NCBI GenBank assembly: GCA_947650285.1
Contig: CANTFL010000222.1
Span: 1 to 64,000 of the forward strand
DNA length: 64,000 nucleotides
Direction: 5' to 3'
Source: Hyaloperonospora brassicae
Lineage: Eukaryota > Oomycota > Peronosporomycetes > Peronosporales > Peronosporaceae
This document shows, one piece after another, positions 6,784-60,067 of the stretch. Position numbers and translations under genes: made by a program. Position 1 is the stretch's first letter; every line of letters begins with the position of its first letter. Below the pieces are notes generated by a model. The model had not been told where the DNA came from and made no database searches. It was given only the letters and a program-made list of their open reading frames with translations.

Positions 6784-7730
6784 TTGACGGTAGTTGTCGG
6801 GACTAGCGGCTGTATATGTAATTGGCGCGCATGCGTCTATTTGTCCACTGAGTGTCGTGCATTTATTACAACTGAGAAACCGATCGATCAGAGAATTGTA
6901 GTCTATTGTACTCATCATCGAACATCTCCACAATAATGTGTTTCCTCACTTCGATCGTCCCACATGCTATCGATGCGGTGTGTGCAGTCCTACAGCTGCA
7001 GCTATGTATGCATAAGGTATTGACAGGCATGTCACGACTCGTAAGACCATCGCGTCCACTGACTCGTTGGAAGAGATGAACGCGGCGGTGAGTTAGAATT
7101 GTATCGGTCTAGCAAGGGAAAAAAATTGGACTTTTCTACGGACAAAGAAAAGAACAGAGTGTATCTTGCAACAAACAGAACATGACTGTATGTACACGTC
7201 ATTGACATACATGTACGACCCACTGCATTAAGCTTACGCCAACCCGATCGAGGCAAGCTTTTTGCACCAGACGCACGCGGACTCAGACAGGAATGCACTT
7301 CCCTTCGCCCTTGTACCGCACCACTCATTTTGTGCTCATACTATACCCACCAGCGCACATGGAAAGAACCAGCGGGCTGTTGGAAGAGCACTACACAATA
7401 AGCGCAGACGTTGTCCAGTGCACTGAGCCTCACTTGTGGTCTGCAGCAGGGAATTTCGAGACTGAGCTCTGCAAGCGCGTTGGTCAACGCGGTTTCAAAT
7501 GACTGGTGTGGACTCGAAGGAGATGGATGTTGATCCAATGTCGTACGTGATGTGGTACACCCCGAATACACACAACGGAGACCAAACGCCTCTACGGAAT
7601 GGCGCGCAGCTGCTAAAGCTGCCATCGTCAACGACACGGCCACGTCCATTGGACATCTATCTATACACCGATAGAAAAACGGCGGCCCACTCCGCAAGCA
7701 ACTGCACAAGCAGTGAAACACTGCGCTGGA
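6784..7730. other. Intergenic region, no gene recognised
   Basis: About 950 bp between the Nudix stop and the transporter start. Short open frames on both strands have no family resemblance and no start or intron support. The last few hundred bases presumably hold the transporter promoter and 5' UTR. Confidence 0.5.
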
Positions 7731-9622
7731 ATGTGTACGGACGCCTCGGACGCCTGCTTGCAACCTTGTACGTCGCCTGATAAATCCAATGGCCTGCTCC
7801 TGATGCCTCCGTCGTCTCCTGATCGATCGCCACTCAAGCCCTGTCGCACTGAACCGAGCGTGCTAAGGAGTCAACACTTGCTTGAGGTTCAGTCGGATTG
7901 TGATGGCCCCAAGGAGCAGCCAAGGAAGCAAGGAAGGGCCAAGACTCGGACGATCAACCACATCACGCTGGGATTTATTGCCTACTTTGCAGTCGCAGCA
8001 GGACCTTTTGGTGTTGAAGATGCAGTGCGAGCCGCAGGGCCATACCCAGTGCTTCTGGCTGTGGTGCTACTGCCATTTACATGGGGGTTGCCACAGGCAT
8101 TGATGGTGGGGGAGGCTGTATTATCGATGAACGGTCAACGTCTTCAGCTGACGATTGTTGGTTGGTGTTCTACAGACCGCTGAGCTTAGCTCCATGATCA
8201 GTGAAAATGGAGGTTACATCTTGTGGGTGCGCCGTGGACTGGGCCAATATGCTGGCTGGGTGAATGCGTTCAACTGCATTGCTAGCAATGCGTGCGACTT
8301 GCCCACGTACCCCGTGCTATTCTGCAGCTATGTCGAAGCGTTTTTGGTGTCCGGATATAATTATAGTCTATCCGGCACAGAGCGATGGTTGGTGAAATGC
8401 CTCGCTCTACTGTTTGTGTTCGTATCGAATGTAGTCGGATTACGCGCAGTGGCAGTGGCCTCCGTGCTGATGTCCCTCTTTGTACTTGCACCGTTCATCT
8501 TGGAACCGCTCTCAATTGAGACCTTCAACCTCGCTACGTGGGGAAGCGTTGCACCGGACATCGACTGGTCGGTGTTTCTCTCCACCATATTGTGGAACTA
8601 TCAAGGTGGGCTTTGCTGGAGGTGGGGAGCGACGTTTGAACTTGCCTCTCACTGCACATAATGGATCGTTTGTTTCAAACTAGGTTGGGATTCTCTCGGG
8701 TGCGTAGCTGGCGAAGTCAAAGAAGGAGGAAGAACTTACCCGATCGCCATAACGATCGCAATGATTCTGATCACCGTCAACTACGCTGTTCCAGGTCTGT
8801 GTTATCTCATTGATTGCGCATTGCGAATGAACTCCGTCCTCACGCTTATTTCTTCACCCGTATGCAGTCGGTGCAGGTATCATGGTGAAGTCTGACTTTT
8901 CGCAGTGGCATGAGGGTTCTCTGGAGACCATCGCCATGTCCATTGCTCCATGGCTTGGGGTTTGGGTCGGCATGGCTGCAGTCGTAGCAACGCTGGGCGA
9001 GTTCAACGTCGTGATGGCTTGCAGCTCGCGTGCGTTGTGGGCAACAGCAGACTACAAGATGCTGCCGTCGTTTCTCGCTATTGAGTGGGAGCGCTTTGAG
9101 ACGCCGGTTGCAGCAGTGATCTTCCAGACGATTACCACTGGCATGCTCATGAACTTTTCATTCGAGATCTTGGTGGTCATTGACACCTTCTTCAACAAGT
9201 ACGTCGTCGTCGCTTGTGATCCGTCTTTGCGAGGTGAACAGCTGCGCAGGACACTAACCAGTTGTTGTGTGATGGAATCCTGCAGTCTCACGCTGATGCT
9301 GGAGTTCTTTGCGTTCTTGCGCCTGAAGTACGTGGAAAAGGACACTGAACGTCCGTTTGTAGTACCGTTCGGCAGCGCTGGCGCGTGGGCAATTACGCTG
9401 CCCAAGATCGTCGTGCTCTTGGGCGTGCTGATTGCACAAAAGCGCAGCGTGTGGGTGATCTGCGGGCTCTTTAATGTGGTCGTCTCCAGCGCGTACCTCG
9501 TTTGGCGCCGCTTCCATCCACCGCAGCAAGGCACGTGCGCTTACGCTCGCACTAGTACCACTGTTCCCACCACGTATGGCACGGGTTTGTCGTCGCAGCC
9601 AGTCGTTGTGCACCGCTCCTGA
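7731..9622 (+). CDS. APC-superfamily polyamine/L-type amino-acid transporter (PUT/LAT-like)
   Basis: Five exons: 7731-8117, 8176-8605, 8684-8794, 8868-9198, 9286-9622 (531 aa). Introns: 8118-8175, 8606-8683, 8795-8867, 9199-9285, all GT..AG. A hydrophilic N-terminus (about 85 residues) precedes about 12 hydrophobic segments beginning NHITLGFIAYFAVAAGPFG. Family marks are the LPQALMVGEATAELSSM stretch formed across intron 1, ENGGYILWV, YPVLF, and WDSLGCVAGEVKEGGRTYP across intron 2, which parallels plant polyamine-uptake transporters. It likely imports polyamines or amino acids at a membrane. The start is the first in-frame ATG (MCTDASD); a later ATG at 7803 is possible. Intron 4 is 87 bp, stop-free and a multiple of three, so retention would keep the frame. 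Substrate is not certain. Confidence 0.83.
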
Positions 9623-52083: not shown

Positions 52084-52476
52084 TGTTACGGGGCAGCCCG
52101 TTACATGGAAATTGTCGTTTGAGAGATAATGACAATAAAGAATATTATGTTGAATATTCTTTTAACAATATCACCAATAGTGGTGATATTGATGGGTCGA
52201 CCAAAGAGTCTGCTCATTGGTTGATATCTTGACGATATCAACCCACCAATCGCCGCAAGACGCGCGCAATGAGTGGTGAGTAGACGTCGTCATACATTCA
52301 GTTGGATTAGTATAATTAAGTGAGGTCAAACAGAGAGACAGTGGTTAAAGACTTAATTATATTAATATAACAGTTCTGCTTTTACCTTATCTACGCTTCC
52401 TCGTTTGCCTCGTGTACGTCTGTCGGGCGCACCGAAACCCTTGCGTTAAGCTCACGCAAGGGTGTACCCCGTTACA
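52084..52476 (+). repeat. 5' LTR
   Basis: Starts TGTTACGGGG and ends CCCCGTTACA; the right LTR starts TGTAACGGGG, so the ends are 10-bp inverted repeats with one substitution. An AATAAA lies at 52134-52139. Perfect hairpins lie at 52167-52190 and 52219-52243. Confidence 0.92.
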
Positions 52477-52478
52477 CC

Positions 52479-52492
52479 TGGTAGCACTTCGT
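52479..52492 (+). promoter_or_regulatory. Primer binding site
   Basis: TGGTAGCACTTCG begins two bases after the 5' LTR. TGG complements the CCA end of a tRNA; the pattern resembles initiator-Met-type sites, but the tRNA is not proven. Confidence 0.6.
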
Positions 52493-52520
52493 AGTCCTTC
52501 CAAGGACCACAGCATCCAAC

Positions 52521-53648
52521 ATGAACAAGTTGGATGATGAAGAGACCTCTCACGCCACGCGTGAAGGGTTAACCCATTTGAGTGACATCGAATGGAGTGC
52601 TGTAGAACGAATGAATTCTACCGTAGGCGAATTCTCCATTAGCGCCATGTTGGAGTCTCTAGACAGAGACCAACAACATGCCGCTATAGCCAAGTTCATT
52701 CAAAATGAACTTGTCGCCGAAAGGGAGAAAGTAGTCTTGCTTCACCAGCAAGGCTCTCAACAGGCCGAGCAGTTGAGAGAAATCGGTGCTTAACAGACGG
52801 AGCTGTTGAGACAGCAGCAATTCCATGCTGCTGTGGGCGGGACGGCGCATGCGCGTCGTCCCGAAGTCATGAAAGTTGACATCTCCAAGTACAGTGGAGT
52901 CCCGGAAGAATCCCTGTTACTGTGGTTTGTCGAACTCGACAGAGCCCTAAGGGCTCGTCGCGTCGAAGATGAGCAAATGAAACTCACATTTGATCAAACC
53001 CACTTGGCCGGACGTGCCAAAACTTGGTCCCTGGGGCTCGAGAGTAGCGACCCACATGTGTTTGGGTCGCTAGATGACTTCAATTCCCGGCTCAGAAAAA
53101 CGTTTGAGCCGCCACGGGCTGAGTTCAGGGCTCGTTCAGAGCTCCTGAAACTCAAGCAGGGTAAGCGTGATGTGCACGCTTATGCACAACATATACGACT
53201 CCTTGCGAGTAGTATAACTGCAAACCCAGTTCATGAACACACGTTGATTACGGTGTTCATGCAAGGGCTCGCAGAGGGGCCCGTCAGGAGCCACCTATTC
53301 CGCCTTGAGCTGAATATGCTGGTAGAAGCGATATCAGCCGCGGAACAGGAAGAATTTAGCATGAGACAGGCTTATGCTAGCTCAAACTCTTATCGTCCAC
53401 CGAGACGACAAGAGATCGGAGGTCCAGAACCAATGGACCTCTGCTATGTTGAGATCGAGAGACCTCGCTCTTCGAACAACAAGCGATTGCAGAGGTGCAA
53501 TCGCTGTCAGAAGTTAGGGCACTACGCATATGAGTGTAGTGCTCCACGCCCAGTACCCAACAGTACTAAGCGAAATGGACGACCATTTGCCAGAAAGGTC
53601 AATGGGCGTGGGTCCAGCGCTGTTGCGAAACCGCAACAGCGAGACTGA
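52521..53648 (+). pseudogene. Gypsy gag polyprotein, one in-frame stop
   Basis: From ATG 52521 (MNKLDDEETS) the frame runs to TGA 53646-53648, broken by a single TAA at 52791-52793 (after QLREIGA). The N-terminal part is helical and acidic. The middle has a retrotransposon gag capsid-like region (LLLWFVELDRALRARRVEDE, LAGRAKTWSLGLE, LKLKQGKRDVHAYAQHIRLL). A CX2CX4HX4C zinc knuckle (CNRCQKLGHYAYEC) is near the C-terminus. Gag would package element RNA in particles. Pol continues in the -1 frame, which is open across the gag stop, so ribosomal frameshifting was possible. Confidence 0.88.
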
Positions 53649-55153
53649 CCATCAAAAAATGGTCGGGGTCAGTAGGGGCGGAGCGCCCTACTGATCCAGC
53701 AACCTCAAGAGAATTTGCAAATCTCTTGACGAAAGTTGCTCCAGATACACAATCATTGTGTGTCTCTGCACCTGGTGATGACGTTTCGCTCATCACCTTG
53801 AAGTTGGAAGCGACAAATGATTTGTCGCTTCGTGCCCTAGTAGACTGTGGGGCGTCGAACAACTTTGTTCGACGCCAGTCACTAGAGGATCGTAGGCTCA
53901 AGTTCGTTGAGCGCGACATTCCCCTCACGAGGATGACGGTGCGGCTTGCAACAAGCGCATCGATTACCGTTGAGAAACGTGTAGTAGGAATCCACTACGC
54001 GTTTGAGGTTGAACAGTACGATGATGACTTCATCGTACTGGATCTGGATGACAAATGTGATGTCATCCTGGGATTACCTTGGCTCAGAAAATACGAGCCA
54101 AGGGTGAGCTGGCAGCATCGATCCGTGAAGATGCCTGCCGCTTGTTCATCAGATGGCCATCTGATGAACGTCATGGAGCATCCACAAGCGTGTGGATGTT
54201 CTGCGAGTGAGTGCGATGGCCTCACTTGCGGTACGGTCGTTCGCACGACTGCACAAGATCACAGTGTAGTTGATCACTACACTGTGGAGCAAGCTCCCGG
54301 CGGCTGTACAGAAGTACAGGCTGCGCCGAAGGTCCACCACTCGAATAAGTCGAGTGGACCGGGACATGGATGCATGCCTAGCGGGCAGCATCTTAGAAGA
54401 AAGAAACCTGTTGCCTCCAAAGGGCAACATGGACATCCTAGGTCGACTGGAGAGTCGACCGTAGAGGATCGGTGCCTGACTGTGGTTGCACAGCCACAGT
54501 CAGAAGACGTCGAGAGAATAAGTCCCCACGTACTTGAGGAAGGAATTTCTCAAAAGTCACTTGCTGAAGGATCAGGCCCTCAGCAACCTGTGGAAGCAAG
54601 TTCCCAGGAAGAAACCGAGACGTTGAACGTCTTAGTCAATGACAGATCAATTGTAGGCGCTTATACACTTGATCTGATGGTGCCTCCGAAATTAACTTCG
54701 GAGATAACTCAATTGCCAACGCTAGAACCGAAACGGTTCTTGCGTGATCTGCGTAGTGGCAAAGTCAAGCAGATCTGCATACTCGTCACAGATGATGAGT
54801 ATGTGGCCGATATTCGGTCGGCCACAGTATTTGCTGAGAACGAACGGATTCTCAGCAGCTCATCGATGGACGAAAGTGTCCTCGATGAGAAGACCCGGAT
54901 TGAGCGATACAAGTCTCAATCCTGGGAGTCACTTCAGGCAAATCCTTTGTATAAGGATTTGATCGAATTCAAGGATGTATTTTCTGAATCCGTACCGTGC
55001 GATTTGCCGAAGGACAAAGGCACTCGACACGAGATCGAGATCAAACCGGGCTCGAAGTACTGTGTCACGAAACAGTGTCCACTGCCTCGAGAACAAGTAC
55101 TAGCGATCGACAAGTTCTTTGCCGATCGCTTAGCAGCGGTCCATGTGAGGTAA
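53649..55153 (+). pseudogene. Gypsy pol, aspartic protease and linker
   Basis: Frame -1 relative to gag. The protease active site reads LVDCGASNNFV (about 53840-53872), Cys in place of the usual Thr/Ser of D[TS]GA, followed by a hydrophobic flap region and DVILGLPWLRKYEP, typical of retropepsins in Gypsy elements. A linker of about 250 residues precedes the start of RT (LPKDKGTRHEIEIKPGSKY). The frame ends at TAA 55151-55153, where the reading shifts to the next frame within the RT fingers. Confidence 0.85.
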
Positions 55154-56235
55154 TCGACATCCCTCACACCTCTCCGACCTTCTGTGTGCGAAAGGCCACA
55201 GGAGGATGGCGGATAGTGCACGCATTCAACAAATTGAATGCTGCAACGGTACCGGCTCAGACGCGAATACCGAGGAAGGACGTAATCATAGATGGTGTGT
55301 CAAAGAGTACCATCTTTTCGTCCATGGATCTGATGGACGGATTCTATCAGATCCTCATGCGTGAACGGAACATCCCGTACACAGCAGTGAGCATCCTCAG
55401 CGGTATAATGTGGGAGTGGCTAGCGATGCCACAGGGGCTGAGCAATGCCCCTGCTACTTTCAACAGATGTGTTACAAATCTGGTGAGACCTGTGCGAGAC
55501 TTCGCACCGAGTTACTTCGAAGATGTGTTCGTTCATAGCCGGGCTATGGACGGAAAGACGGACGTTGAAGTTCACAGAACTCACGTTCGTCAGGTTCTTC
55601 AACTTATGCGCAAGCATAAGTTGTACGCCAACCTCAAGAAGTGCATATTCGCGGCTAGCGAAATACCACTTCTTGGGTGCATCGTGGGTAAACACGGCGT
55701 ACGCCCTGATCTCGAAAAGATCAAGGCTATCACCAATTGGCCAGTGCCATTCGATGTCAAGGGGCTAAGGAAGTTCCTTGGGCTAGCGGCGTACTTGCAC
55801 AAGTACTCGCGCAACTACGCCGAGATGAATGTTCATCTTTCTTGCTTGCTCAAGAAAAATGTCAAGTGGTCATGGAACGCTGAGTGCCAGCGTTTCTTTG
55901 AAGGTATCAAGCAAAGATTGATGCAATCGCCGATCTTGGCGATTGCAGATCAGGACAGACCATTTCATATGGTTTGTGACGCCAGCGATTTTGCAATCAG
56001 CTGTGCGTTAATGCAATTTGACGCAGATGGCGCGGAGCGCGTCATCTGTTATCAGTCGCGTCAGCTGCAAGCAGCTGAGCGCAATTACCCAGTGCATGAC
56101 AAGGAACTCCTTGCCATGAAGTACGCACTGGCTAAGTTCCGGATCTATCTATTGGGAGATAGACCGTTCATCGTCGATACGGACCATGCGTCATTACGCA
56201 CGGTCGCAAAAGCCCACACATCTCGCAAAGAATAG
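55154..56235 (+). pseudogene. Gypsy pol, reverse transcriptase and RNase H
   Basis: Continues RT in a new frame: SPTFCVRKATGGWRIVHAFN, SSMDLMDGFYQI, TFNRCVTNLVR, then YFEDVFVHS. The catalytic YxDD box is YFED (55513-55524): the first Asp is Glu, which should impair polymerisation. RNase H follows with DASDFAISCALMQFDADG, HDKELLAMKYAL and VDTDHASLR. The frame stops at 56233-56235. The next segment continues in another frame (RWLSFFAEYNFSLDYKPG), so a small indel lies near 56205-56225. Confidence 0.9.
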
Positions 56236-57589
56236 CGAGGTGGCTGTCTTTCTTCGCGGAGTATAACTTCTCCTTGGATTATAAACCAGGACGACTACTC
56301 GTCGTCGCGGATGCGCTCTCGCGCCGGCCCGATTTCGAGCCGGACGCACAACCAAACAGTAAGGATAAGCCCACTGTTGCGACACTGTCAGTCAGTGTTC
56401 CGTCGTCAAGCTTACTTGACGACGTACGAAAGGCATACGCAGAAGATAAGGATCTTATGCGATTGATGGATCATCTGGTGAAACCATCCAGTAAATCAAT
56501 GAGGGATTTACCGGCTTTGTACCGATCCTCATCGGATCGGTATAGTACACGCAACGGATTGCTGTACTATACAGCTGTTGCCGACGACACGCCTCGTGTC
56601 GTCGTACCCGCTCATCATGACTTGCGTTTGCGCATCATGTATGAGTGTCACGATGCCCCAACAGGCGTCCATCGTGGTAGAGAAAAGACTTACCTCACGG
56701 TAAGTCGTGAATTTTACTGGCCCCGCCAGTACCTGTTTACACGCAAGTACATACGTGCTTGCGAGGTTTGCCAACGGGTGTGAAGCCTAGTCCTTCATCC
56801 CGTGCGCCATTACAGCCTCTGCCTGTTCCGACAGAGTGCTGGCTGTCCGTTTTAATGGATTTCGTCTTCGGTTTTCCCGAAGACGCTCACAAAAATAATG
56901 GTATTCTTGTGTTTGTTGACCGATTCAGCAAGATGGTCCATCTTGCTGCTGTACCCGAGTTGATCAAGGCTCAAGGTTGTGCTCGTGTTTTTCTCGACAC
57001 GGTCTTTAGACTCCACGGGTAACCCCGTGAACTCGTATCCGACCGTTACTCTCGATTCACGGCGGAATTTTGGCAATCCGTGTTCCGTTCTCTCAAAACA
57101 CGGTTGACGATGTCCACTTCTGACCATCCCAAAACAGATGGTCAGAAGGAATGTGCGAACCGTGTCCTCGAAGAGATCCTTCGAGGATATGTCCACTCGT
57201 TGTCGAGTTGGAGCGAATTCCTACCCACGGTGGAATTCGCCATCAATAATTCGGTGCATGCCTTAACACAGCACACACCGTTTTACGTGAATGGTTTACG
57301 CGATCCACGCGTGCCCGCCCTTCTAGAGTGTAACTCTTGGATAAGGGGGGAGGGACTCGTTCGAGCAAAAACCGTTTTGGCTCTTGCTCATCACGTGTCG
57401 ACGCTAACGTCGTCACGTATGATGCCGATGTCGATCAGGTCGACATCGATGAAGCACACCACCGCAATAATAGCGACAACGCTATTATTGGATCGGATGA
57501 TGATGACGATGCTGGTATATTCAGCATCGTCAACGATTATTCCAGCGAGGAAGAAGACAACCTCGCTGAAGAAGAGAGCAATCTCTTAG
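56236..57589 (+). pseudogene. Gypsy pol, integrase
   Basis: RNase H/IN connection (SLDYKPGRLLVVADALSRRP) and the HHCC zinc domain (H..H with CEVCQRV, 56600-56780) are in one frame. The catalytic core starts in another (VLMDFVFGFPEDAH, first Asp). A TAA at 57020-57022 interrupts it. The core resumes in the same frame with LVSDRYSRFTAEFW (second Asp) and TDGQKECANRVLEEIL (Glu), giving a readable D,D,E triad. A G-run near 57342-57350 coincides with the shift to the chromodomain frame. Confidence 0.88.
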
Positions 57590-58569
57590 TAGTGCGCACG
57601 AAGCGCACTGAAAGACAAAACAAAGAGTCAGCAGAGAACTTCTTGCTGAATCGAGAAGCGGTAGTCCGTTTCGTTCAGGACTCCATCGCAAATGCGGTGG
57701 ACCGCCAGAAACGGAACGCAGACAAGAATGGAAGAGCAAATGTTCTTTCATTTAGAGTTAACGACCTAGTACTACTGTCTACGGTAAACTTACCTGGACA
57801 TGCAGTCACTAGTGTCGGCAGTAGTAAACTACTGCCGAAATACGTTGGGCCATTTCGAGTGTTGCATCGCAAGGGCAATGCATACACACTCGAATTGCCA
57901 CGTAAGATGCGCACGCATACTACGTTTTACGTGGGGAGGCTTAGGTCGTACTGTCAGTACGAGCCTTCTTTTTTCGATGAAGATAGCCCCCACCTTCAAG
58001 AACATCCATCAAGTTCTCGCGTTCGCGCTCCAGACGATCCGTCTGGTCGCGCAGATATGATACCTCGGAACTCAAGCGAGATATCTCTCCGCGAGCTGTC
58101 GCCAGCTCGCCGTAAAGGGAGCGGACATCCCGCTCGACCTGAAGCTGCGCTGTGGCATAATCGGCGCGGTCTCTCGCCCAATCATCCTCGCGATCCTTGC
58201 GGTTCTTCCGCACGGTATCAGTCAAAGCGTAGCGCCGGTCGCGCTCGTGCTTCAAGTCATCGCGCAATTCATCGATTGTGCGATCCATCTCGTAAGGGTC
58301 GAGATGGTGAGCAGAATCATCTGGAGGAGGTCTTTCCTCCTCCACCACATCCTCTGGTGGATTCTCACGGTGGCCAACGATTTCTAGTGGAGCGTATCTT
58401 GAATCAACGTGACGATTCAGGATCAAGGACGAGCTACCTTGTCCAGTGGCGGGGGTATCCACCCTCTTGGAACAGCTGGGAGCCCCGCTCTCAGCTGTTG
58501 ATGGATGTTGAAGGTCTCGTCCGCCAGTATGACGAGACTCATCCGATTGGCCCTATGGCCCATCTGTAA
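57337..58569 (+). pseudogene. Gypsy pol C-terminus with chromodomain
   Basis: Open frame of 410 codons. It starts with an acidic segment and passes through the integrase C-terminal GPY/F-type part (LLPKYVGPFRVLHRKGNAYT, FYVGRLRSY). It then runs through a low-complexity linker and ends in a chromodomain (FLVERILNQRDDSGSRTSYL, VQWRGYPPSWNSWEPRSQLL; about 58384-58560). Chromodomains steer integration to marked chromatin in chromoviruses. The linker and chromodomain overlap an antisense frame on the minus strand. The segment itself is unbroken. Confidence 0.85.
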
Positions 58570-59542
58570 ACACGCGCCCTAGGCGCCTGTAGACGGATTG
58601 CAAGTTAGCAATCGCGTCACGCATCTCAGCCGAGATGTGTGCCCTTCCCCAGGGCGAACTTAGGGAATACACGTCCCTATGTGCACGCTGCGAGTTGTAA
58701 ACACAACTCGCACAAGGGTCTCCCCATGTGAGGCAAGGAATGTCTGCCTCACTCGACAAACAGTGCAACCGGTACCTTGCACCGGTTGGCGTTCGCTTTT
58801 CGAACCTGAGGCGTACCGCCTCAAGTTTCTTGAGCCACCCTTCTCGTCTAAAATTCTTTACGTTTTGGACGAACGCGTTCCACGCAGCCAAAAGCGATGC
58901 TTTGTCACGCTTTTGGTTGCTGTCGTACGATCGGTGTCTAAGAAAGACATCGGGATAAAAATCTTCTTTAGCGCGAAAGTTCTTCGCGCTGGAACTCAAG
59001 CCGTGAAGCTCAGTCGCATCGAATAAGGGTATTCAATGGTGTTGGCTTGTCTCGTGAGACAAGCCATTGATGAGCCGTTCGGGCAGACGCCACGGCTTCA
59101 GCTCATCACGCTTCAAAGTGGTACCCTTGTCGGTACCACGGTTGTCAGTATGACGATGGCTTGCACCATCGTCAAGTCGCTCGTGCGAAGGAGCACGAGT
59201 TGATCGCGGTGATGAGCAATCATACTCATCATCAGACTCATCATCACTTCCGAACAGACTGTGACGCATGTCACGAGTTCGTATGTCCGGCAGTGTCGTG
59301 GATGAATGAGGCACCGCAGGTGAACGCGATGCCTCCAAAGGCTTTTCCGAGTCAGACACGTCTGAATCGCCAGAGTAGATGACCTCAACGTCGGGGTCAT
59401 CGTGCGCACGCGGTGTTGTACCGCGTGCACCTGCAGCACCTGTTCCTGCAGGCGGAGAACGAGCAGCAGACGACGAATCGTCTGCCGCAGAGGCTGGCAC
59501 AGCAGCGGACTGTGCGTGTCTTGGGTCACCTCGCATAGACAT
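57941..59542 (-). pseudogene. Antisense accessory ORF of the Gypsy element (two internal stops)
   Basis: A single minus-strand frame of about 534 codons from ATG 59542 (MSMRGDPRHA) to the stop at 57941-57943. It is broken only by TGA at 59033-59035 and TAG at 58553-58555. The N-terminal part is acidic and Ser-rich, with DVEVIYSGDSDVSDSE resembling a SUMO-interaction motif. The middle has a Cys cluster (HCLSSEADIPC, GDPCASC) and YSLSSPWGRAHISAEMRDAI. The C-terminal part is a strong coiled coil (MDRTIDELRDDLKHERDRR to LERERENLMDVLEGG), then a basic end. It lies 132 bp from the 3' LTR and overlaps the sense chromodomain frame. Decay is similar to gag. Function unknown; I do not recognise the family. 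A fortuitous frame is the alternative. Confidence 0.6.
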
Positions 59543-59662
59543 GTTAACTATGCGAGGTCAAGCGGAAAGTGAATGGAACAGACCCAACAAGTGATCCCTG
59601 TCCCAATGGTGCCCAATGAGTGGCCGCCATATTTTTGATAGTCATACGGTGACTATCAGTTA

Positions 59663-59674
59663 AGAGGGGGGTGA
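59663..59674 (+). promoter_or_regulatory. Polypurine tract
   Basis: AGAGGGGGGTGA directly before the 3' LTR start (59675), the usual plus-strand primer for a Gypsy element. Confidence 0.75.
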
Positions 59675-60067
59675 TGTAACGGGGCAGCCCGTTACATGGA
59701 AATTGTCATTTAGAAGATAATGACAATAAAGAATATTATGTTGAATATTCTTTTAACAACATCACCAATGGTGGTGATATTGATGGGTCTATCAAAGAGT
59801 CTACTCATTGGTTGATATCTTGACGATATCAACCCACCAATCGATGCAAGACGCGCGCAATGAGTGGTGAGTAGACGTCGTCATACATATATTTAGATTA
59901 GTATAATTAAGTGAGGTCAAACAGAGAGACAGTGGTTAAAAGACTTAATTATACAAATATAACAGTTCTGCTTTTACCTTATCTACGCTTCCTCGTTTGC
60001 CTCGTGTACGTCTGTCGGGGCAACAAAACCCTTGCGTTAAGTTCACGCAAGGGTGTGCCATGTTAGA
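59675..60067 (+). repeat. 3' LTR
   Basis: 393 bp, about 92-93% like the 5' LTR by eye. It begins TGTAACGGGG; the last bases are altered relative to the 5' LTR end (GCCATGTTAGA versus CCCCGTTACA). It abuts the stop region of the minus-strand LINE. Confidence 0.9.

Follow-up and report, generated by a model that had tools for sequence, protein, structure and literature searches.

Why should a retrotransposon be filled from end to end with short perfect hairpins? The question arises at a locus in Hyaloperonospora brassicae, within the 64,000-nucleotide stretch of contig CANTFL010000222.1 that was analysed (the window). There, an initial annotation had read well over twenty perfect inverted repeats by eye against a chance expectation of 1-2 per 8 kb. 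The locus is a whole Ty3/Gypsy chromodomain retrotransposon, here called family A, in a moderately decayed copy (Table 1). Its LTRs, recognised from a self-match of element positions 1-382 with 7592-7973 at 94.3%, have diverged by 5.4%. They bracket gag, protease, reverse transcriptase, RNase H, integrase and chromodomain in this order, as found with Pfam in pieces of the window copy and in young copies.

By blastn, the same genome holds 13 further long family A copies. The window gag frame has a shorter 5' end than in young copies (384 aa in young copy L006), and its matches to Ty3_capsid and the CCHC zinc knuckle fall below the Pfam cut-offs. The antisense open reading frame is intact as one 535-aa frame in L006; its first remnant in the window has Pfam matches below the cut-off only. 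No Rfam match within the element reached the gathering score, and scans of viral-contig and genome-contig collections found no relatives beyond its own genome, elsewhere yielding proteins only, among them one at 88% identity encoded by a family in Peronospora effusa.

Table 1. Positions of family A features in the window
Feature	Positions	Strand	Basis or remark
Whole Ty3/Gypsy element, family A	52084..60067	+	blastn against further copies; LTR divergence
5' LTR, about 393 bp, boundary approximate	52084..52476	+	self-match
gag (Retrotrans_gag)	52806..53648	+	ORF, Pfam
Start of pol: aspartic protease (RVP_2)	53726..55153	+	ORF, Pfam
Hairpin, 12-bp arms, loop 1	53807..53831	.	one of 73
Hairpin, 11-bp arms, loop 5	54014..54040	.	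one of 73
Perfect palindrome, 26 bp (28 bp in young copy L006)	54144..54169	.	
Hairpin, 11-bp arms, loop 5	54260..54286	.	one of 73
Broken pol frame: reverse transcriptase and RNase H piece	54997..56235	+	ORF, Pfam
Broken pol frame: integrase zinc-binding piece	56274..56783	+	ORF, Pfam
End of pol: SH3 (Tf2-1-like) and chromodomain	57337..58569	+	ORF, Pfam
Hairpin, 11-bp arms, loop 7	57504..57532	.	one of 73
Long antisense ORF, first remnant	57941..58462	-	ORF, Pfam
Long antisense ORF, second remnant, 3' region	59033..59542	-	ORF, Pfam
Hairpin, 11-bp arms, loop 2	59043..59066	.	compensatory pair at same register in young copies
3' LTR, about 393 bp	59675..60067	+	self-match, LTR divergence

Hairpin density and geometry

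We found 73 non-overlapping perfect inverted repeats in the element (arms of at least 8 bp, loops of 0-12 nt), so that the count made by eye was an underestimate. Sixty dinucleotide shuffles of the element gave a mean of 1.5 and a maximum of 4, which agrees with the original chance estimate, and the window outside the element (56 kb) carries 2.7 repeats per 8 kb. With arms of at least 10 bp, 30 were observed against 0.13 in the shuffles, and with at least 12 bp, 4 against 0. The five repeats first quoted all pair. Two 11-bp hairpins (54014-54040 and 54260-54286) and the 26-bp palindrome are exactly as described, the repeat at 53807-53831 has arms one base pair longer than the 11 bp reported, and the one reported at 59044-59065 with 10-bp arms extends by one base pair.

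The hairpins also exceed what the proteins dictate. In young copy L003, gag has 14 repeats against 0.45 (maximum 3) in 100 codon-preserving shuffles, and pol up to the integrase end has 49 against 1.1 (maximum 5). Since these shuffles lose the hairpins, the proposal that synonymous choice closes the arms is supported. Over a 600-residue stretch from reverse transcriptase to integrase, homolog-conserved residues are altered no more often in arms (4 of 69) than elsewhere (16 of 298), once residues varying among homologs or lying partly inside an arm are dropped. The register that pairs third codon positions together is under-used (33:29:12, p 0.006). Could chance, base composition or codon usage still produce the pattern? 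We regard this as extremely improbable: no point in its favour was found, neither dinucleotide nor codon-preserving shuffles reach a comparable density, and host DNA of the window and Copia pieces lie near chance.

Host DNA was examined as six 8-kb blocks of 0-48 kb, an overlapping stretch at 44.0-52.1 kb, and 60.1-64 kb; none of these has a comparable excess of 4-7 bp stems with loops of 3-8. Small local surpluses occur. There are 2 stems of at least 9 bp at 8-16 kb (0.1 expected), 2 stems of 8 bp at 60.1-64 kb (0.3 expected) and 37 stems of 5 bp at 40-48 kb (28 expected). Stems of at least 6 bp with loops of 9-20 number 37 against 22.5 at 32-40 kb, 28 against 15.9 at 40-48 kb and 28 against 18.0 at 44.0-52.1 kb.

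In family A, stem length is centred on 8-10 bp and most loops have 3-8 nt; the hairpins recur about once per 50 nt throughout the LTRs and the coding and non-coding parts. The excess lies almost wholly within loops of 0-16, and spans centre on 23-26 nt. GC-rich stems are shorter (arm length against GC content, rho -0.27 to -0.39, about 0 in shuffles), as expected if stability is kept. A regular spacing was considered and rejected, the coefficient of variation of the gaps being 1.0-1.1 and close to random. In L037 and L001, compared with one shuffle per window size, folding energy is below the shuffled controls across the whole genome of the element (in 100-nt windows of L037, -38.7 against -24.6). 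The third position of tetraloops is a purine in 20 of 22 cases, including 8 of 8 in non-coding DNA (p 1.3e-4, the lowest value among the 33 loop positions examined); the motif is weaker or absent in other loop sizes of family A, and no shared loop sequence was found beyond this purine.

Change in the arms among copies

Nine young copies (LTR divergence below 0.8%) carry 105-112 repeats each, and repeat number falls with LTR divergence (rho -0.86, p 4e-7). This correlation uses the 21 full-length copies among 24 aligned, the truncated L012-L014 being left out. L018-L029 were excluded from the count of copies, being self-matches of the palindrome to its opposite strand. L016 and L017, which coincide in part with L012 and L011, were set aside, and L042 and L043, considered as other families, proved to be fragments of family A. 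Comparison of the copies supports a course in which the element would be held, during its active (retrotransposing) phase, to a design of recurring short local Watson-Crick stems, which would decay after insertion.

Are the hairpins made by mutation or kept by selection? RNA hairpins have been proposed to arise, and to be preserved, through template-switch mutations (PMC8794818), and the initial annotation named template-switch correction among its possible causes. Intrastrand switching by the element's reverse transcriptase would perfect inverted repeats in a family-specific geometry and without function. It would account for perfect Watson-Crick pairing free of G-U bias, for an effect on the whole element and for decay after insertion. 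Single changes also fall more often on the 3' arm (57, against 37 on the other; p 0.049), the arm copied first in minus-strand synthesis. However, unbiased conversion of one arm to the other should leave the substitution rate unchanged, and the arms are slow.

Among the nine young copies, with arms called in each of 9 of the 15 other aligned copies in overlapping tests, changes per site are 0.024-0.031 in arms, 0.081-0.091 in loops and 0.064-0.070 between hairpins (ratio of arms to the rest 0.34-0.47, p 6e-9 to 9e-17). The slowing holds at third codon positions (0.020-0.039 against 0.094-0.101 between hairpins) and in non-coding DNA (0.037-0.067 against 0.102-0.121); arms are 1.5-3.3 times slower than spacers even there. 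The slowing is smaller, 0.53-0.62, when every stem called in any of the young copies is included, a call under which compensatory doubles (5) are hardly in excess of other doubles (4). A diverged subfamily, L015, is 84.6% identical over the 1534 columns kept after poorly aligned ones were dropped. With one of the two sequences serving for the hairpin calls, 6-7% of arm sites differ, against 18-19% of spacers and 19-23% of loops, and there are 4 compensatory pairs. Because the slowing among the young copies extends to third codon positions and to non-coding DNA, the pairing looks selected and more than a product of mutation.

Compensatory change between copies, which the initial annotation had suggested comparing, does occur and is sparse beside single changes: 5 pairs against 94 singles in the young set and 4 against 47 in non-coding DNA. 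Across 18 copies, 10 compensatory double changes are shared, against 5 other shared doubles, and one hairpin has haplotypes with 9, 10, 11 and 12 pairs, single steps apart. A comparison of 111 loops between copies revealed a single inversion, carried by L011, the oldest copy; it shows that such an event can happen and not that it is common. Stem length that depends on GC content, and Copia pieces and window host DNA that are unaffected, also speak against template switching. We therefore disfavour it as improbable, and of the causes first suggested, selection on pairing is the kind that is supported; among its selective forms (RNA structure for packaging, small-RNA escape or targeting), the present data choose none.

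Single changes in arms of the young set give G-U in 26 cases, A-C in 36 and other mismatches in 32; among shared variants the numbers are 23, 27 and 52. These counts lack the G-U tolerance of pairs on a functional RNA strand. A stem in sense RNA should tolerate G-U, so the lack of preference counts against a plain sense-RNA structure, and selection seems to act on both strands or on DNA.

Other families in the genome

We compared two Gypsy families (A and B) and two Copia families (L044 and L045); judged by frame length, frames of 1,795 aa and one of 1,940 aa in this genome may belong to a third and a fourth Gypsy family. Family B is a second, distantly related Gypsy family. Tiling was at first taken as unique to family A, as L030 and L032 hold only 2 repeats each with arms of at least 8 bp; shorter arms revealed a tiling by 5-bp stems. 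These two are 95% identical and hence count as one family. The 1566-codon ORF of family B has 68 stems (at least 5 bp, loop 3-5) against 13.5 in codon shuffles. The locus has a further 21 upstream (3.3 expected) and 26 downstream (4.8 expected), and codon registers are used without bias (25:24:19). Its arm conservation is weak: L046 differs from L030 or L032 by 0.106-0.137 in arms and 0.156-0.169 between them. In the L030-L032 comparison, with poorly aligned columns dropped, arms differ by 0.030 or 0.014, depending on the copy used for stem calls, against about 0.05. The two Copia elements, which have no blastn match to each other, show stem counts near chance. Similar tiling in a second family suggests a structural code that has gone unrecognised.

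What would such stems be for? They might act as single-stranded DNA, with cDNA hairpins (or cruciforms) that protect the cDNA, pace reverse transcription or promote strand transfer. Equivalent strands without G-U tolerance would fit, as would the small loops of family B, in most of which the closing pair is 5'C-3'G or T-A (46 of 57 L030 triloops), an arrangement suited to mini-hairpins of RNA and DNA alike. Yet the tetraloop purine and the A-rich loops are strand-specific (sense-strand loops are A-rich in family A and T-rich in family B), and Copia elements, which also make cDNA, are untiled. We consider this role rather improbable.

The main rival is evasion of small RNAs, in which local self-pairing on both strands would block the loading of 21- to 26-nt guides, hide targets and slow sense-antisense annealing, and so weaken silencing. 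Pairing kept without G-U preference is expected if both strands must fold, and the restriction to short loops and the 23-26-nt spans suit guides of this size. In Phytophthora, most small RNAs from transposable elements are of 25/26 nt (PMC3804510). The self-folding predicted for 25-mers is the same for either strand, with 34% below -5 kcal/mol against 15% in the shuffle. However, the same silencing should face the two untiled Copia families, and family B stems have only 5 bp. A fit of the whole hairpin to a 25-nt small RNA was also rejected: arms barely shorten as loops grow (slope -0.07 to -0.10 instead of -0.5), so that the invariant is the length of the arm and not the span. Evasion is possible and, in our judgement, unlikely.

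Putative packaging signals and known systems

Since family B uses 5 bp and the two Copia families have no such stems, the stems are most likely read by machinery of the element itself, with Gag/nucleocapsid as the probable reader. Through many stem-loops that are weak, redundant and specific to the family, Gag would recognise its own RNA (or cDNA) and condense it for packaging. We tentatively favour this explanation over the others: the hairpins look like a selected feature of the family A lineage and are putative signals for recognition and packaging by its own Gag. A bolder version, possible if somewhat unlikely, is that stem length (9 bp in one family, 5 bp in the other), repeated about 100 times by synonymous choice, serves as a structural barcode and lets the Gag or reverse transcriptase of a family tell its own nucleic acid from that of its competitors.

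Packaging stem-loops of the MS2 and STNV type are located in coding sequence. Dispersed packaging signals are described in ssRNA viruses such as these and, like the hairpins of family A, consist of many stem-loops spread over the genome (PMC6281560, PMC3662417). Family A differs in being a reverse-transcribing cellular element with about 100 perfect stems, a family-specific length and no G-U tolerance. The RNA of Ty3, from the same superfamily, was mapped by SHAPE and is described as having a core that is well folded and a 5' palindrome serving dimerisation, not as tiled by short perfect stems. Its packaging determinants are reported to lack a precise definition, both UTRs and POL being needed (PMC11381356). 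The stems left by template switching (PMC8794818) are as perfect as those of family A, whose slow arms, few compensatory pairs and near absence of loop inversion point to selection instead. Coding palindromes of up to 284 bp in mitochondrial genes of Nematomorpha (PMC6649704) are likewise perfect inverted repeats in conserved coding sequence, whereas family A has 8-14 bp stems in a nuclear mobile element.

It is poorly defined how an LTR retrotransposon tells its own RNA from host transcripts and from that of rival elements, as Ty3 illustrates (PMC11381356). With about 100 constrained stems, young and decayed copies, and a second family that differs in stem length, this choice becomes directly testable. 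Family A further provides a very strong example of a second, element-wide message borne by synonymous sites. Like genomes with genome-scale ordered RNA structure, it folds well below its shuffle throughout; unlike them, its excess lies in local stems only (loops up to 16), which are perfectly Watson-Crick with equivalent strands. Literature pairing such structure with retrotransposons yielded no title on a retrotransposon genome. As a minor observation, the 3'-arm bias of single changes (57 against 37) is not predicted by recognition through Gag.

Hairpin density and anatomy in family A

The initial annotation described the Ty3/Gypsy element of the window as tiled with short perfect hairpins that synonymous codon choice seems to close, and the five repeats it quoted all pair. 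We found 73 repeats (arm ≥8, loop 0-12) in this copy vs 1.5 in dinucleotide shuffles. The rest of the window has 2.7 such repeats per 8 kb, and its host DNA shows no excess comparable to that of this family (A) or of a second Gypsy family (B). Codon-preserving shuffles removed the hairpins of L003, a young copy, from both gag (14 observed vs 0.45) and pol (49 vs 1.1). In L003 and L006, the young copies measured, 49-50% of bases fall in perfect hairpins (arms ≥7, loops up to 40, loop included).

The excess is almost wholly restricted to loops of 0-16. At loops of 3-12, arms centre on 8-10 bp, with a smaller excess of 5-7 bp arms besides; arms lengthen past 10 bp no more often than expected by chance (in L003, 5 of the 27 arms that reach ≥10). 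Arm length hardly varies with loop length, and GC-rich stems have shorter arms. The LTR, gag, pol, and 3' region carry 11-17 hairpins per kb, and neither mean arm (9.0-9.4) nor mean span (24.0-24.5) differs between coding and non-coding hairpins. In the coding parts of L003, the register in which third codon positions pair with one another is under-represented (33:29:12, p 0.006).

Positions of family A features (L003 and L006, young copies; L014/L015, recombinant element)
Feature	Position	Strand	Remarks
Ty3/Gypsy element	window 52084-60067		gag, protease, RT, RNase H, integrase, SH3, chromodomain pieces
gag-pol junction	window 53649-53726; L003:3091-3142		
Antisense ORF	L006:7356-8963	(-)	535 aa, ATG start; young copy
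Antisense ORF remnants	window 57941-58462 and 59033-59542	(-)	
Recombinant element	L014 from about 7453; L015 from about 1219		

The window copy, bounded by two LTRs of ~393 bp that are 5.4% apart, is a worn copy. Among 24 aligned copies, each of the nine whose LTRs diverge by less than 0.8% carries 105-112 repeats, and repeat number drops as LTR divergence rises (rho -0.86, 21 copies with both LTRs). L003 has gag and pol in separate frames; the pol frame opens ~50 nt beyond the gag stop, and hairpins span the junction. The antisense ORF of L006 overlaps both the 3' region and the end of pol that encodes the chromodomain; a Pfam search with it gave no match, and its length in L003 is 441 aa.

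Selection, mutational correction, and strand

What maintains the pairing? The nine young copies came to differ from one another while their lineage was active. With nine other copies used one at a time to call the stems, the rate of change in arms is 0.34-0.47 of that in the rest (p 6e-9 to 9e-17; the tests overlap), and the slowing holds both at third codon positions and in non-coding DNA. Calling stems as the union over young copies instead gives a ratio of 0.53-0.62 (p 0.002-0.035). Neutral arm-to-arm conversion, a mutational correction that would explain the hairpins without selection, should leave the arm rate unslowed, make compensatory pairs common, and invert loops. However, the young set holds 5 compensatory pairs beside 94 single changes and 4 other double changes, and only 1 of 111 loops is inverted between copies, in L011, the oldest. 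Less neatly, single changes fall more often in the 3' arm (57:37, p 0.049), as a correction process in minus-strand synthesis would predict. Because slow arms, few compensatory pairs, and rare loop inversion are unlike neutral conversion, we disfavor it and hold, from these comparisons of copies, that pairing in family A is apparently maintained by selection. Of the causes offered by the initial annotation, selection on pairing is supported and template-switch correction is disfavored.

The L011 event, an exact inversion of the 5-nt loop in the hairpin aligned with window 58970-58990, is the kind of trace left when a template switch occurs within one strand or a hairpin flips. One hairpin has haplotypes of 9, 10, 11, and 12 pairs, single steps apart, and at one hypervariable spot different subfamilies form different perfect hairpins.

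The 5' part of the recombinant element is 98% identical to L037, a young copy; the 3' part (87%) comes from a diverged subfamily, and a ~300-bp stretch is too diverged for blastn alignment. Over the 1534 columns kept (84.6% identity), the 3' part (L015) differs at 6-7% in arms, 18-19% in spacers, and 19-23% in loops. Every pair is kept in L015 for 9 of 22 hairpins called in L037, and in L037 for 11 of 18 called in L015, with 4 compensatory pairs in either direction vs 0 and 2 other double changes.

Single changes showed no preference for G-U among the nine young copies (G-U 26, A-C 36, other 32), among shared variants (23, 27, 52), or in the L015 comparison from L037 (5, 4, 11). Selection therefore sees both strands alike, or sees DNA, or requires strict Watson-Crick stems. 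The lack of G-U preference conflicts with two strand-specific features that point to one strand: sense-strand loops are A-rich (0.31-0.32 vs about 0.246), and tetraloop position 3 is a purine in 20 of 22, the strongest among 33 loop positions tested in family A.

A second Gypsy family and two Copia families

Family B comprises L030 and L032, at 95% mutual identity, and L046, a diverged copy. Its pol shares 47% identity with that of family A across 1300 aligned residues for L030; for L032, the two longest pieces give 57 and 63%. Long arms occur in chance numbers only. Stems of exactly 5 bp with loops of 3-8 number 123 (L030) and 107 (L032) vs 28 and 31 in shuffles. The 1566-codon ORF has 68 stems (≥5 bp, loops of 3-5) vs 13.5 in codon shuffles. 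Loops are mostly 3-5, and 46 of 57 L030 triloops close with C-G or T-A. Arm conservation is weak. Stems with one G-U pair surpass their shuffled counts by somewhat more than stems with one A-C pair do (one-G-U 119/68, 115/68, and 43/24 observed/shuffled in L030, L032, and L046; one-A-C 68/54, 88/55, and 18/22). In the same order, one-G-U vs one-A-C counts are 82 vs 44, 75 vs 51, and 24 vs 8 at stem ends, and 37 vs 24, 40 vs 37, and 19 vs 10 inside. This excess, larger at stem ends, hints weakly at a role for the sense RNA.

Two Copia families (L044 and L045; 3.5 kb each, RVT_2, no blastn match between them) are near chance: 5-bp stems with loops of 3-8 stand at 16/12.8 and 14/12.0 observed/expected, and longer stems are near expectation. 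The exception is five 6-bp stems with loop 2 in L044, vs 0.8.

Possible readers of the hairpins and family abundance

That Gypsy and Copia elements differ within one genome, and that each tiled family has its own stem length, suggests reading of the family A and B hairpins by the element's own proteins rather than by general host defence. Our best guess is that Gag would package or condense its own nucleic acid via the hairpins. The main rival is that they serve to evade small RNAs, which would account for their strand symmetry and locality and agrees with the 25/26-nt small-RNA class described for Phytophthora transposable elements (PMC3804510), but leaves the untiled Copia families and the 5-bp stems of family B unexplained. 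Among the open-access matches listed (titles and abstract openings), none reports short perfect hairpins tiling a retrotransposon.

In the downy mildew Bremia lactucae, Gypsy elements are reported to make up 58.6% of contig sequence, with recent expansion (PMC6570648). The protein most identical to family A outside the H. brassicae genome (100.6 Mb in 898 contigs) is from Peronospora effusa (88%). Within that genome, we found 13 further long family A copies by DNA, at least 73 matches to family A pol at 99-100% identity, and at least 104 to family B RT at 88-100%; both tiled families are large, these match numbers being lower bounds.
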